Of a stretch of 5,158 bases of DNA, positions 1-5,110 are shown piece after piece (position 1 is the stretch's first letter; every line of letters starts with the position of its first letter). The notes under the pieces were generated by a model, which was given only the letters and a program-made list of their open reading frames with translations, was not told the DNA's origin and ran no database searches. The DNA is taken from positions 1-5,158 of the forward strand of contig PEWQ01000185.1 in the NCBI GenBank assembly GCA_002780065.1, read 5' to 3'. Made by a program: the position numbers and the translations under genes. Source of the DNA: Candidatus Hydrogenedentes bacterium CG07_land_8_20_14_0_80_42_17. Its GTDB lineage: Bacteria > UBA8481.

Positions 1-1385
1 TTCACTTCTTCTTCCTTTTCTTCCGAAGCTTCAAGAGTTTCTATTGCAGAACCAATCAAAGAAATTAAAGCCGCGTTCACTTCGATCTTTGGAATACTCT
101 TTCTGCCTTTTTCTAACGCATCTCCATTTGCTCTAGCCGAAAGAGTAATATCAGTCCCGAAGACAAGAGAAGGAGAAGGAACTTTAACCGGAAGAATTAT
201 GCTTCGCTCAGCCGATCGTGATTCTATACCAGCCCACCACGGTGCTTCCTCATTACGTGTTTGTGGAGTAATAATAACCGATGGCGTATTTTGAATTAAT
301 GGTTCTCGATTCGCTCCAGCTGAACTCGATGGAAATTCAGTTGAAACATGTCCTGTTCCATAATAGGGAGGATTTGTCTGAGTCGAAGTTTCTTTGCCTC
401 CGCTCAAATCAAAACCTATAGTTCTATCTTCAGACGTCTGGCGCCTTTCGTAAGAAACTCTGCTGCCTGCTAATGACAAAGGAGTTCCTGAAGTTGAAAC
501 CGGAATTGCCGTCATTTGTAACGACGGGCGATTTGGAGTCTGAGCTTCAACAGTTTGTTCTACTACTTCTTCATTTTCATTACTTGAAATTTCTGATATT
601 TCAGCCGGCAATATTTCCTCTCTCACAGGAAAAGTCACAACTTTAATTCCACCAACAAAATACGGAACTACATGCTGATTTGCTGAAGGTTCAAGAATTT
701 TATTTTCATTCAAAAAATTTTCAGGAAAAGTCGCATTGCCTACAAAATTAACTTCTTCATTACTTTGAGGATACTCAGTTGCAGAGCTCACAGTAGAATT
801 CTGATTTCTAGGCCACGAACCGGATGAAACATTCTGAGGACGTTCATTTCTTCTCGTTCGACTCGCAGTTCGAGTTCTAGCGCGCCTGGAACCACTAGAA
901 GTTCTTGCAGTTTCATTCTGAGGCGGAACTGCTCGATCAACAATCTCTCCAACAACGTTTCGCGCCAATCTATCTGCCGCCGAATTGCTGCGCGACGAGT
1001 TTTCACTTCCTGAAGCTGGAGAAGCAGTCTGATTTGAACTTTCATTTACCGGCATTCTTTCGATCTCTTTAATCCTCTGCTTTGCAAATGAAGAAAGATC
1101 CGAACTCGATCCGTATGCAGAAAGCATATTCTTATATGCCTCTAAAGCCGCAGTTCTATTCCCTCTGCGCTCTTCAGTCAGCCCGATGTAATATGCCGCT
1201 ACCGGCGCCTCCGGCGAGGATGAATGCTGTGCAACAACATCTTTAAAACCGGATTCAGCTTCAGAATAGCGCCCGTTTTCAAAGAGTCGTCGCGAATGCT
1301 GAAGTCCCTCATTCGGAGTCGTTCCGTATACTGCAAGAATAGATGCGCAAATTCCTACAGCTATCGAAATCGATCTGAATCTCAT
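1..1385 (-). CDS. Exported TPR protein with long disordered Ser/Arg/Asn-rich region (3' end outside window)
   Basis: This frame stays open for 461 codons from the ATG at 1385 to the left edge, so the C-terminus is missing. The start has an AAGGAG 8 bases upstream and overlaps the preceding stop as ATGA. Residues 1-21 are a short basic stretch plus hydrophobic core ending near VYG, read as a signal peptide or anchor; Cys13 lacks a lipobox. Residues about 26-110 form two TPR-like helical hairpins (GRYSEAESGF..., then AAYYIGLTEERRGNRTAALEAY) with the spacing of YbgF/CpoB/BamD-type periplasmic TPRs. Residues 112-380 are low complexity, rich in Ser, Asn, Thr, Gln, Pro and Glu. An Arg cluster at 161-182 holds nine Arg. 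From a WW pair at 383-384 to about 451 the sequence looks ordered (SIILPVKV, GTDITLSARANG, IEVNAALISLIG), then becomes acidic (EEKEEE). I recognise no family for that part. Export and TPR calls are fairly firm; function is unknown. Confidence 0.85.
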   Translation of the reverse strand, partial: MRFRSISIAVGICASILAVYGTTPNEGLQHSRRLFENGRYSEAESGFKDVVAQHSSSPEAPVAAYYIGLTEERRGNRTAALEAYKNMLSAYGSSSDLSSFAKQRIKEIERMPVNESSNQTASPASGSENSSRSNSAADRLARNVVGEIVDRAVPPQNETARTSSGSRRARTRTASRTRRNERPQNVSSGSWPRNQNSTVSSATEYPQSNEEVNFVGNATFPENFLNENKILEPSANQHVVPYFVGGIKVVTFPVREEILPAEISEISSNENEEVVEQTVEAQTPNRPSLQMTAIPVSTSGTPLSLAGSRVSYERRQTSEDRTIGFDLSGGKETSTQTNPPYYGTGHVSTEFPSSSAGANREPLIQNTPSVIITPQTRNEEAPWWAGIESRSAERSIILPVKVPSPSLVFGTDITLSARANGDALEKGRKSIPKIEVNAALISLIGSAIETLEASEEKEEEV

Positions 1386-1825
1386 CTGCTCTTCTCCTTG
1401 TATGGCCTTGTTCGCGCCGGTCTAAACTCAAATACTTCCCAACTCGGCATAAAAAATTGTCCCCTGTCAACAAGCACTAATCTGTATTCGCTTTTCCTTG
1501 AGCCGCCAGGCGGTGCAAGGCTCGATGCTTCGAATATCACTAAATATTCAATGCGACGATCTTTACTCTTATCGGTAATAGAAGGCTCTACCTTACGATC
1601 TAATTGAAAAATGTTTGAAATTCCCCGTTTCGGTACATCTATCCTGTCCGGCGGCAAAGGCGATGAAAAATTGTATTTAACCAAAAAAATAGAGTTGTCT
1701 ATTCCAAGCCGCAATTCCTCAACAAACGCTCTAGCCTTTTCATCAGGCAGCATGTGGAGAACTACTTTTTGCCAACCAAACGCAAGAAGTACCAAAATCA
1801 CCGCAATTAAAACAACATTTTTCAT
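1382..1825 (-). CDS. Small membrane-anchored protein of unknown family
   Basis: The 147-residue product begins MKNVVLIAVILVLLAFGW, a single hydrophobic segment at residues 3-18 after one Lys. It fits an uncleaved N-terminal anchor, with the remaining ~125 residues in the periplasm, or possibly a signal peptide. The soluble part starts with a probable helix (28-40, DEKARAFVEELRL). It continues with alternating hydrophobic/polar stretches suggesting beta structure (47-53, 92-99, 114-120, 128-134), a PPGG turn at 105-108 and a basic tail. I see no catalytic motif, Cys pair or named domain. The ATG lies in an ATGA overlap with the upstream beta-barrel gene and has AGGAG 7 bases upstream; its own stop overlaps the next start the same way. 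This arrangement implies coupled translation and a shared role with its neighbours. Pseudopilin-like or assembly-factor roles were considered, but no prepilin cleavage motif is present. Confidence 0.85.
   Translation of the reverse strand: MKNVVLIAVILVLLAFGWQKVVLHMLPDEKARAFVEELRLGIDNSIFLVKYNFSSPLPPDRIDVPKRGISNIFQLDRKVEPSITDKSKDRRIEYLVIFEASSLAPPGGSRKSEYRLVLVDRGQFFMPSWEVFEFRPARTRPYKEKSR
1394..1399 (-). promoter_or_regulatory. Shine-Dalgarno for the left-edge TPR gene
   Basis: AAGGAG on the minus strand, 8 bases before the ATG at 1385 and inside the end of the 147-codon gene. With the ATGA overlap it fixes the start of the partial gene and supports coupled translation. Confidence 0.8.
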
Positions 1826-3012
1826 TTAGTTTCTCCTGTCAATCCACCAAGCGAAATTAAATTCGAGCGCGCAAGAGAATGATTCGGGTCGATCTCCAAA
1901 GCTCGAGCAAAAGCTCTACGGGCACTCTGAACCTCTCCGATGCGGTAATATGCAAGTCCGATATTAAAAGGTATGTCAGCATTCTTCGGTTCAAGTTCCG
2001 CCGCCTTTTCATACGCTTCTATCGCTTCACGAGGACGCCCCATCCGATAATATGCATTCCCCATATTATTCCAAGCTGACGGAATTGAAGAATCTTTAGA
2101 GATTGCTTCCCGATAAAGTGAAATTGCTAGAGGATAATCATTCTGAGCCATTGCTGATTCTGCCTGAGCAATACTTTCCTCTGCTCCTGGAGCGGGCGGC
2201 CGTCCCCATTCCGCCTTCCTGTAATTCGTAGCGTCTCCCGCCGTTTTTCCAAACTCTTTGGTAATTCCAACCCTTGCTATCCAATTCGGACTTTCTTTTG
2301 TAAAACCGGCTCCACCTGAAAATGCCATCTCCAAAGTTGGAGTCAATTCCTTCGTCAATCCTAATTCGCCAACAATGTCCTTTCTAACGCCTGGAACAAG
2401 CTGTTGTCCGGAATTGACTCCGAGGCTCCAACGCATTGTATCTCGAAATCTCCGCTCATACGCTCCCCCCCACTGAAACACATCATCGCGCTTCGACATA
2501 AACAAAGTATATCCAAGGTTGAGATGTCCCGCGGATCTTCCTTCGGAAAAAACTTTTGTTAAGGCGTAAACAATTCCTATTGAGATAGCATCACTCGACG
2601 CAGGATTATTCAATCCGTAGCCCAATTTAATTTCTGTCGATGTCGCAGGATAATTTCCCTCATTTTGAGTCATCTGATATTTCAATGCGACAGAGAGATC
2701 GGACAATCCACTTCCGTCAAAATCAGAATTGCTCGAACTTTGAAATGCAAAAGGAATTCCAAATCCGACCTCTAAACGGTCTTTCCAGCCATAACGCAAA
2801 GATATTGGAGCTCTAACAGCAGAGAGTTCACTGCCTTCAAGCATCAAACCGGCACCTGCATCCAATCCAATCTTCGATTCCCAAGTACCCGCCCAGAGCA
2901 CCGTAGCGTCATCTGCAAACATAGTTCCCAATCCGATTCGGGCATCAACTTTGGAAAAAGAAAAAAGAAAAGTGAAAAGCACAATGGCAAAAAATAATAA
3001 ACGTCGAATCAT
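1822..3012 (-). CDS. Outer-membrane beta-barrel protein with C-terminal TPR repeats
   Basis: A 396-residue protein with a clear signal peptide: RR at 3-4, a Phe/Leu-rich core at 5-19 and likely cleavage after VDA (residue 24). Residues about 26-254 show amphipathic strands separated by polar turns, roughly 10-12 in number (for example SAVRAPISLRYGW, RLEVGFGIPFAF, GLSDLSVALKYQM, STEIKLGYGL). They finish at ITKEF with Phe254, like the terminal aromatic of a barrel beta-signal. The 'LRYGWKDRLEVGF...GLSDLSVALKY' pattern resembles the MetA/phenol-degradation transporter-like barrel family. A linker at 255-279 (RPPAPGAEE) leads to three TPRs at about 280-309, 312-345 and 346-379, the last two near-canonical (AWNNMGNAYYRMGRPREAIEAYEKAAELEP). 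The TPR part presumably sits in the periplasm and binds partners. It follows the TPR gene by 16 bases with no evident Shine-Dalgarno. The barrel call is strong, but its cargo is unknown; the MetA family name implies no phenol metabolism here. Confidence 0.9.
   Translation of the reverse strand: MIRRLLFFAIVLFTFLFSFSKVDARIGLGTMFADDATVLWAGTWESKIGLDAGAGLMLEGSELSAVRAPISLRYGWKDRLEVGFGIPFAFQSSSNSDFDGSGLSDLSVALKYQMTQNEGNYPATSTEIKLGYGLNNPASSDAISIGIVYALTKVFSEGRSAGHLNLGYTLFMSKRDDVFQWGGAYERRFRDTMRWSLGVNSGQQLVPGVRKDIVGELGLTKELTPTLEMAFSGGAGFTKESPNWIARVGITKEFGKTAGDATNYRKAEWGRPPAPGAEESIAQAESAMAQNDYPLAISLYREAISKDSSIPSAWNNMGNAYYRMGRPREAIEAYEKAAELEPKNADIPFNIGLAYYRIGEVQSARRAFARALEIDPNHSLARSNLISLGGLTGETK
1833..1837 (-). 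promoter_or_regulatory. Shine-Dalgarno for the small anchored-protein gene
   Basis: AGGAG on the minus strand, 7 bases before the ATG at 1825. It is embedded in the last codons of the beta-barrel gene (encoding ...LTGETK). It supports the chosen start and coupling with the barrel gene. Confidence 0.8.
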
Positions 3013-3028
3013 ATCTATATTCTATAAC

Positions 3029-5110
3029 TTATCTTTTCATTCTGCCAGAGTCACTTTTTCTAATTCTTCGAATAGAATCGCCCGCGCGCACTTCAGGCAT
3101 GCCTTCTGTAATCTTTACTTCAGCATACCTTTCCGTTAAATCAGAAACATATCCCACAGCAATCGAACGTTCCTGCTCTCCAGGCCAATCCAGTCCTTGT
3201 ACAAGAATATCGCGCTTCTTCTGAAATATTTGGATCGAATCTCCTTTAACTATGCCGTGAATTCTTCCGAGATTTATTGTCGCTATGTCGGAAGAATGTC
3301 TGCGCAATACAGCTCCCTTCAGAGACAAAATTCCGGCAACATCGTTTGAAATCTCTACTATGGCTCTTGTCAAAGAATTCGTTCCTTCTGTTGTTAAACT
3401 CTGACTGAAAATGATTGGCCCTGCCGGAACTTTAATTACATTCATCACAATTCGTATCTTCTCTTCTGCTTCGATAATTCGAGAGGCAATCACAACATCA
3501 GCGCCTAAAGCCTCGCCTATTGAGGCAGGTTCAATGTCTTCCAAACGATTCGCGTTCTTCTCGGATATAACTCTTTTAACTTCCTGCATAGGAATAATTT
3601 TAAAGCCCGGAAGAAGTTCCAGTGTAGTGCTCAGCCATTCTCCGGCAATCTCTCCGACTCCGTCATGATAAGGCCGCACAGGTTCAGAGAACGGCAATAT
3701 TGCGATAACTAATCGGGGCTTCGGCACCGCCGTAATACTCCATCTTATCTTCTCTTCCAACACTTCAGGATTTCCAATGAGAGCACCGAGCTGACTCGTC
3801 GGCTGATCCCAGATATCTCCAAATTCGACCTCATGAACTTTCTCCATCTCGGCCAATGCTTGATGAGTTATTACCTCCATGAGGTCTGATGCAACCAATC
3901 TTTCATTTTGTGAGCGAGTCAGTTCTTCAACTCTTTGAAGCTGTTTCACCGCTTCAGAAAAGTCTTTTTCGCCGGCAAGAAATCGTGCCATATCGAGTCT
4001 CGCCGAAGAATACTGTGGAGCAAGCCGAATCGCTCTATGATAGTTAAGAAATGCAAGTAAAGTGTTTTTTACATTCTCAGCTTTTTTTGCGAGAGCTATT
4101 CTTCTTACTGCAAGAGTCATTCGAGCAGTATCTTCAACAGGCAAAAGTTTTATTCTTACCAGTTCGAGTCTATCCATTGCAACTTCATCTTCAGGTTTTA
4201 AAAGTAAAGCGTTCAGATATTCTGACTCCGCTTCCTTCAAATATCCTGCCGCTTCCAAATCTCTGCCTCGACCAAATGCGCCCTTTTCTCCTACCTTCTG
4301 CATGTAGTCGGCAGCTTCTCGATAGTTGCCTGTAATTCTCGAAAGCGATGCCAATTCAAGATAAGGGTCAGGCCTTCCATCCGATAATTCAGAAGCTCTT
4401 ATGTAAGCTCTTCTCGCTTCGGAGTCTCTTCCCATCTCAATCAGTATTTCTCCAAGCATCTGCCATGCCCAATATGAATTCGAGTCGATTTGCAAGGCTT
4501 GTTTTAGATACTTCTCCGCATCGATATTATTTTCTGTAAATTTTGCTGTGGCTCCAAGTCCGATAAATGCTTCAGCATTATTCAGCTCGATACGTGCCGC
4601 AACGAGAAAATACGATCTGCCTTTTTCTAATAGTTCAGGGTCAGGTAATGCCTCTTTAAGTCTCTCCTTCTGCGCCTTTGCAATGCAAAGCCAACCCATG
4701 AGTTTATTTGCAGAAAGTGAATTCAAATTATTCTTCAGCATGACTAGAGCTCTGCTTTCAGCTTCGTCTATTCTATTAAGCCTTACTAATATAATTGAGG
4801 ATTTTGCCTGAAAATCAGGATCATCTCCTGAAATTTTATATGCGCGGTCGTAAGCAATCAGAGCCTCATCTAGTCTGCCGTTTGCTTGATAAAAATCACC
4901 TAGTTTTTCCCATGCTTCAATATCGTAAGGGTTTTCATCAAGAATACGTTTCAAACCGAGTTCAGAGCCGACTGAATCTCCTATTGCGAGGTTTCCCGTG
5001 CTAGCATCCAAAGCGGCGTTACGGCCGTAATAAGCCATTGAGCCGGCTGAAATCAGAAGCGCCGATAAAAATGCGATAGGCAAATATCTTTTTGTAAAAG
5101 CAATATTCAT
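3029..5110 (-). CDS. Exported TPR scaffold with CsgG/FlgO-like and FlgT-C-like domains
   Basis: The 693-residue product starts with KR at 7-8 and a hydrophobic segment at 10-22, a signal peptide (possible cleavage after SMA, residue 26) or anchor. TPR-type helical pairs fill much of residues 50-400; the clearest are 65-98 (AWEKLGDFYQANGRLDEALIAYDRA), 179-212, 213-246 and 350-382. Residues about 466-598 fit the CsgG/FlgO/TolB-N/LpoB-type fold: a first strand LVIAILPF, then GEIAGEWLSTTLELLPGFKIIP, a VKRVISEKN helix, IGEALGADVVIASRI and a closing IRIVMNVIKVPAGPII strand. Residues about 602-682 resemble the FlgT C-terminal domain (ATINLGRIHGIVKGDSIQIF ... AVGYVSDL ... AEVKI ... VRAGDSI). Such domains occur in curli secretion and flagellar H/T-ring or lipoprotein-activator proteins. 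No flagellar or curli gene is visible here, so neither function is assigned. An in-frame TGA lies 6 bases before the ATG, fixing it as the first possible ATG; the Shine-Dalgarno is poor. Confidence 0.92.
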   Translation of the reverse strand: MNIAFTKRYLPIAFLSALLISAGSMAYYGRNAALDASTGNLAIGDSVGSELGLKRILDENPYDIEAWEKLGDFYQANGRLDEALIAYDRAYKISGDDPDFQAKSSIILVRLNRIDEAESRALVMLKNNLNSLSANKLMGWLCIAKAQKERLKEALPDPELLEKGRSYFLVAARIELNNAEAFIGLGATAKFTENNIDAEKYLKQALQIDSNSYWAWQMLGEILIEMGRDSEARRAYIRASELSDGRPDPYLELASLSRITGNYREAADYMQKVGEKGAFGRGRDLEAAGYLKEAESEYLNALLLKPEDEVAMDRLELVRIKLLPVEDTARMTLAVRRIALAKKAENVKNTLLAFLNYHRAIRLAPQYSSARLDMARFLAGEKDFSEAVKQLQRVEELTRSQNERLVASDLMEVITHQALAEMEKVHEVEFGDIWDQPTSQLGALIGNPEVLEEKIRWSITAVPKPRLVIAILPFSEPVRPYHDGVGEIAGEWLSTTLELLPGFKIIPMQEVKRVISEKNANRLEDIEPASIGEALGADVVIASRIIEAEEKIRIVMNVIKVPAGPIIFSQSLTTEGTNSLTRAIVEISNDVAGILSLKGAVLRRHSSDIATINLGRIHGIVKGDSIQIFQKKRDILVQGLDWPGEQERSIAVGYVSDLTERYAEVKITEGMPEVRAGDSIRRIRKSDSGRMKR

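Follow-up and report, generated by a model that had tools for sequence, protein, structure and literature searches.

What does a single polypeptide do that carries a tetratricopeptide repeat (TPR) array followed by a CsgG-like and a FlgT-C-like domain: does it form a channel, serve the flagellum or act as a periplasmic scaffold? The locus that raises this question lies in a window of 5158 bp, the whole stretch of DNA analysed here, which is an entire contig of a 2.39-Mb draft genome. An ATG open reading frame at 3029..5110 on the minus strand encodes a protein of 693 aa, in which a TPR array, a TolB-N/CsgG-superfamily domain and a FlgT_C-like domain follow one another. The open reading frame, Pfam, profile and fold evidence agree on this joining of the three parts, which a sequence-only reading of the locus had proposed. 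An ortholog is encoded in a second genome of the phylum (G001, 'Candidatus Hydrogenedentota bacterium isolate J006', contig RFFU01000032.1), with 42% identity over the full length and the layout kept. Our within-phylum comparison consists of these two genomes, from two families of one order.

Residues 1–26 (5033..5110, minus strand) resemble a signal peptide, with KR, a hydrophobic stretch and SMA; the ortholog's N-terminus is likewise signal-like, with AFA in place of SMA. Hydropathy in 19-residue frames peaks at 1.53, in the frame that begins at residue 10. Read from the sequence, the N-termini of both proteins lack a lipobox of the CsgG/FlgO type; the 693-aa protein contains one cysteine in all, and neither protein has one near its N-terminus. 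Given this signal-like N-terminus, the protein would be exported to the periplasm.

The TPR array was assigned to residues 46–322 (4145..4975, minus strand) as eight confident helix pairs from Pfam (TPR_19, 2.1e-20; TPR_2, 6.8e-17) and AlphaFold, which predicted 16 helices within these residues, mostly at pLDDT 75–94, and lower-confidence helices to about residue 426. Residues 323–394 (3929..4144, minus strand) are helical in the low-confidence part of the model, weakly match Pfam PknG_TPR (309–424) and are a probable degenerate continuation of the array. An initial estimate of about 400 residues of TPRs was slightly generous in length: the eight repeats are secure, and the remainder is helical. 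Residues 394–426 (3833..3931, minus strand) are predicted to form one long helix and are the most conserved segment of the protein (VEELTRSQ.ERLVASD.MEVIT..ALAEME.VH), with 82–87% identity between the two families against 38–53% in the flanking domains. No segment of the long-TPR relatives L036 and L037 aligns with this helix, which probably serves as an order-specific interface.

The C-terminal assignments draw on several kinds of profile. Pfam FlgT_C matches residues 610–668 at E 7.8e-5 when the C-terminal piece is searched, with 23.5 bits, under the curated cut-off of 27; the ortholog scores 19.6 bits. Residues 466–598 (3317..3715, minus strand) gave no direct Pfam match to CsgG, FlgO (PF17680) or LpoB, so that the HMM check suggested earlier for these three and FlgT_C returned FlgT_C, below threshold, and none of the others directly; the relatives L040, L050 and L060, however, exceed the FlgO cut-off. 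FlgT_N, in whose place the TPR array fills the N-terminal part, and LysM, a TsaP domain, were not among the Pfam matches of the 693-aa protein. A test profile was built from six other-phylum relatives; those that were scanned gave Pfam CsgG matches between 1e-12 and 1e-14. This profile found the 693-aa protein at E 4.7e-14 (49 bits, residues 465–636), and the best of 2000 shuffled C-termini reached 7.4 bits. Searched against the PDB, a C-terminal family profile matched TsaP (4.7e-6 and 2e-5), FlgT (1.4e-4) and LpoB (E 0.016). We assign residues 466–598 as CsgG-like on the basis of the six-relative profile and the predicted fold.

A full-length AlphaFold model made with two sequences stayed mostly below 50 pLDDT across residues 324–599, and a C-terminal model (441–693) made with three sequences had a mean pLDDT of 70 and a pTM of 0.55. 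The monomer prediction proposed earlier was informative: the top Foldseek match of the C-terminal model was Vibrio FlgT (3w1e, E 1.8e-14), covering both domains, followed in order by TolB, GNA1162, PelC and LpoB. VIA-align likewise placed model residues 22–250 on FlgT 94–356 across both domains (Z 14.7, 212 residues, rmsd 8.6 Å); because of this rmsd and the three-sequence model, the placement of the two domains relative to each other is unsettled. The first domain by itself aligned with TolB-N (Z 15.8, 118 residues, rmsd 2.1), the PelC dodecamer (Z 12.4), LpoB (Z 10.3) and CsgG (Z about 10 to 11; 6lqh 11.2), indicating that the CsgG core fold is present. In the model, residues 466–598 are no closer to CsgG than to TolB-N, FlgT-M and PelC, and the two C-terminal domains together look like what we take to be the M and C domains of FlgT. 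Residues 599–683 (3062..3316, minus strand) are assigned as a FlgT_C-like small beta-barrel on three grounds: Pfam, the similarity to TsaP and FlgT in the PDB profile search, and the fold. The profile matches and the fold confirm boundaries near 466–598 and 602–682, as originally drawn. Matches of the barrel to V-/F-ATPases were set aside, as small-barrel resemblance is common. A GLDWP motif (window 3182–3196, residues 639–643) is conserved in the order's FlgT_C-like domain and missing from the aligned relatives.

CsgG builds its pore from two membrane-spanning beta-hairpins. The window's genome and G001 each encode a CsgG+FlgT_C paralog with strong CsgG scores (1e-31, 1e-35), and at the two hairpin sites the paralog from the window's genome has insertions, one of about 23 residues and one of about 26. 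Alignment with the hairpin-bearing paralogs of both genomes showed that the 693-aa protein and its relatives lack both insertions. Because both hairpins are missing, a curli-type pore was rejected and the protein is not read as a secretion pore; judged from these alignments, a pore role is unlikely. The absence of pore hairpins noted at the outset, and the preference for a scaffold over a channel, are thus borne out.

How unusual is this architecture? A profile of the C-terminal region found relatives in 71 of the 386 genomes searched, including the window's own and G001. Several of them match Pfam CsgG at 1e-12 to 1e-14, with weaker matches to FlgO, LpoB, TolB_N and FlgT_C. Proteins with CsgG-like and FlgT_C domains are common in other genomes and are spread over many phyla, often with TPRs: few-repeat versions of the TPR, CsgG and FlgT_C order occur in other phyla (L038, L040, L041, L050), and L036 and L037, from one other phylum, combine a long TPR array with the same domain order at about 20% identity. 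Other relatives of the module add Ig-like-looking regions or cyclase-like domains, both recognized from sequence only. In another phylum, one protein (L094 10716–13631) seems to combine CsgG-like and FlgT_C-like domains with TPRs, a CHAT-like region and a nucleotide cyclase. A single-protein scan of genome contigs and scans of viral contigs returned no full-length relatives, one viral contig yielding a CsgG-like lipoprotein only, and a literature search retrieved no paper treating CsgG and FlgT with tetratricopeptide, or FlgT and TolB with H ring. The sequence-only reading had started from FlgO and FlgT as separate proteins, a premise that does not hold: a fusion of FlgO to FlgT was rejected because FlgT itself pairs M and C domains and the CsgG-like/FlgT_C pair is widespread in other genomes. 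What is new here is the arrangement, not the parts: the architecture varies a recurrent theme and is not categorically new. By this evidence the FlgT-M/C pair would be a widespread module that can carry various N-terminal arms, the Vibrio H-ring protein being one user.

One module relative, L060, bears a peptidoglycan-binding domain, and LpoB and TolB-N share the fold of residues 466–598. Both observations favor a regulator of peptidoglycan synthesis or outer-membrane stability, in which the LpoB/TolB-N-like domain would contact a synthase or Tol-Pal and the TPRs would form an LpoA-like arm. However, the stretches read contain no linked penicillin-binding protein or tol-pal genes, LpoB and TolB lack FlgT_C, and the 693-aa protein is not a lipoprotein. 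We consider this the least probable of the alternatives.

Computation shows the domains, the fold and the hairpin loss, and also that the layout is conserved both in another phylum and in two families of the order. The explanation that we prefer, at about even confidence, is a periplasmic scaffold that resembles FlgT, is exported and carries an arm of TPRs. The FlgT-M/FlgT-C-like module, by analogy with FlgT, would dock to an outer-membrane machine and may form a ring around it, and the TPR array would reach away from the C-terminal module and bind partner proteins. Some proteins with cyclase-like domains contain the FlgT-M/C-type module too, so that the module alone implies no ring.

Which machine would such a scaffold serve? 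FlgT acts at the flagellar LP ring, and a flagellar reading makes the 693-aa protein the phylum's FlgT equivalent in an H-ring-like collar, its TPR array replacing FlgT-N and recruiting stators. Consistent with this, FlgT is the best fold match, flgI is present in both genomes, surrounded in that of the window by what appear to be other hook-basal-body genes, and the CsgG+FlgT_C paralog is the only FlgT_C protein found in either genome besides the 693-aa protein and its ortholog. TPR proteins also serve other motors, as stator scaffolds in Campylobacter and, putatively, as collar proteins in spirochaetes (PMC12222027, PMC7990780). However, the gene lies outside any flagellar cluster in both genomes, and FlgT_N is unmatched. 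Furthermore, G284 (98% complete) has the same long-TPR architecture and no flgI match, whereas its sister G147 has one; on this ground a strictly flagellar architecture was rejected. Among ten genomes with related proteins, flgI was found in three and secretin in eight, a secretin figure that carries little weight. A flagellar partner is doubtful and ranks second to a pilus or secretin machine. Near flgI in the window's genome (about 4 kb away), L087 115–1444 encodes, beside argB, two small proteins of the CsgG superfamily whose N-termini are lipobox-like; G001 has a similar small pair (L082 and its neighbour).

The genes downstream point to another candidate. Beginning 17 bp after the 3029..5110 gene, the next gene (1822..3012, minus strand) encodes a 396-aa protein in which three TPRs follow a predicted outer-membrane beta-barrel region. 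The same probable operon continues with a 147-aa protein bearing an N-terminal hydrophobic segment (1382..1825, minus strand), to which a 151-aa protein in the same position in G001 corresponds, and a YbgF-like TPR protein of at least 461 aa (3..1385, minus strand), cut by the contig end, whose G001 counterpart has 1159 aa. The barrel region weakly matches Phenol_MetA_deg and precedes the TPRs; in PelB the TPRs come first. Together, the 693-aa protein and the barrel/TPR protein could form an outer-membrane export complex in the style of PelB (TPR plus barrel) and the PelC ring. PelC has the same fold and forms a ring that is seated on PelB (PMC12141448); in G267, an outer-membrane-protein-like gene lies beside a TPR+CsgG+FlgT_C gene. 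However, PelC is small, is a lipoprotein and lacks FlgT_C. Moreover, contig 28 of G001 carries the orthologous trio (barrel/TPR, 151 aa, 1159 aa) without the 3029..5110 ortholog, which is on a separate contig, and argB lies upstream of the trio; the barrel/TPR linkage is therefore not conserved, and we regard an export complex as improbable. Two long proteins downstream of the trio in G001 (L031 2814–5924 and 907–2817) are coiled-coil, with apparent ComEA-type helix-hairpin-helix ends.

Upstream, the ortholog in G001 lies 78 bp behind a gene for a PilB/GspE-type ATPase carrying an MshEN (c-di-GMP) domain, itself preceded by a nucleoside phosphorylase gene. The same phosphorylase–ATPase pair in the window's genome ends 172 bp before a contig end, and the 3029..5110 gene starts 48 bp from the end of its own contig. 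By eye, contigs 140 and 130 of the window's genome have no end sequence in common. The ATPase gene possibly adjoins the 3029..5110 gene in the window's genome as well, a suggestive arrangement of a linkage seen in G001 alone. Because the ortholog lies directly behind this ATPase gene, we favor, tentatively, as the likeliest partner of the scaffold a machine that the PilB-like ATPase would power, either a type IV pilus or another secretin system. Both genomes encode several secretins. Against this partner we count the linkage in one genome, the absence of a PilB-type gene from the stretches read around L036, L037 and L038, and G130, in which a shorter TPR+CsgG+FlgT_C protein occurs and neither FlgI nor a secretin was found. 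A more specific version is unlikely: here a FlgT-type periplasmic ring, its subunits bearing long TPR arms, would belong to a pilus or secretin machine of the phylum, which is little sampled, and would be co-controlled with a PilB-like, c-di-GMP-binding ATPase. If the ring reading is true, the FlgT-M/C module would be a collar common to flagella and pili. If the ATPase linkage reflects function, the flagellar H-ring fold would be connected to type IV pilus machines, where TsaP carries a FlgT_C-like barrel.

Among known systems, FlgT of the Vibrio H-ring (PDB 3w1e, 8z5n) is an exported non-lipoprotein with FlgT-M-like and FlgT_C-like domains in the same order; the 693-aa protein differs in having about 400 residues of TPR/helical array for FlgT-N, in lying outside a flagellar cluster and in its sub-threshold FlgT_C score. 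The short other-phylum proteins L038, L040, L041 and L050 share its domain order but carry few TPRs and are about 20% identical, and L036 and L037 share both order and long array but lack the 394–426 helix. The CsgG curli channel (PF03783) has a similar alpha-beta core, to which the 693-aa protein adds the TPR and FlgT_C parts while lacking hairpins and lipobox. FlgO, too, is an outer-membrane lipoprotein, unlike the 693-aa protein. PelC, LpoB and TolB-N resemble residues 466–598 in fold but consist of one small domain or are joined to further domains, and PelC and LpoB are lipoproteins. The secretin-associated TsaP (PDB 3jc8, 6ve2) is exported to the periplasm and has a FlgT_C-like domain, which it combines with LysM instead of TPRs and a TolB-N-like domain.
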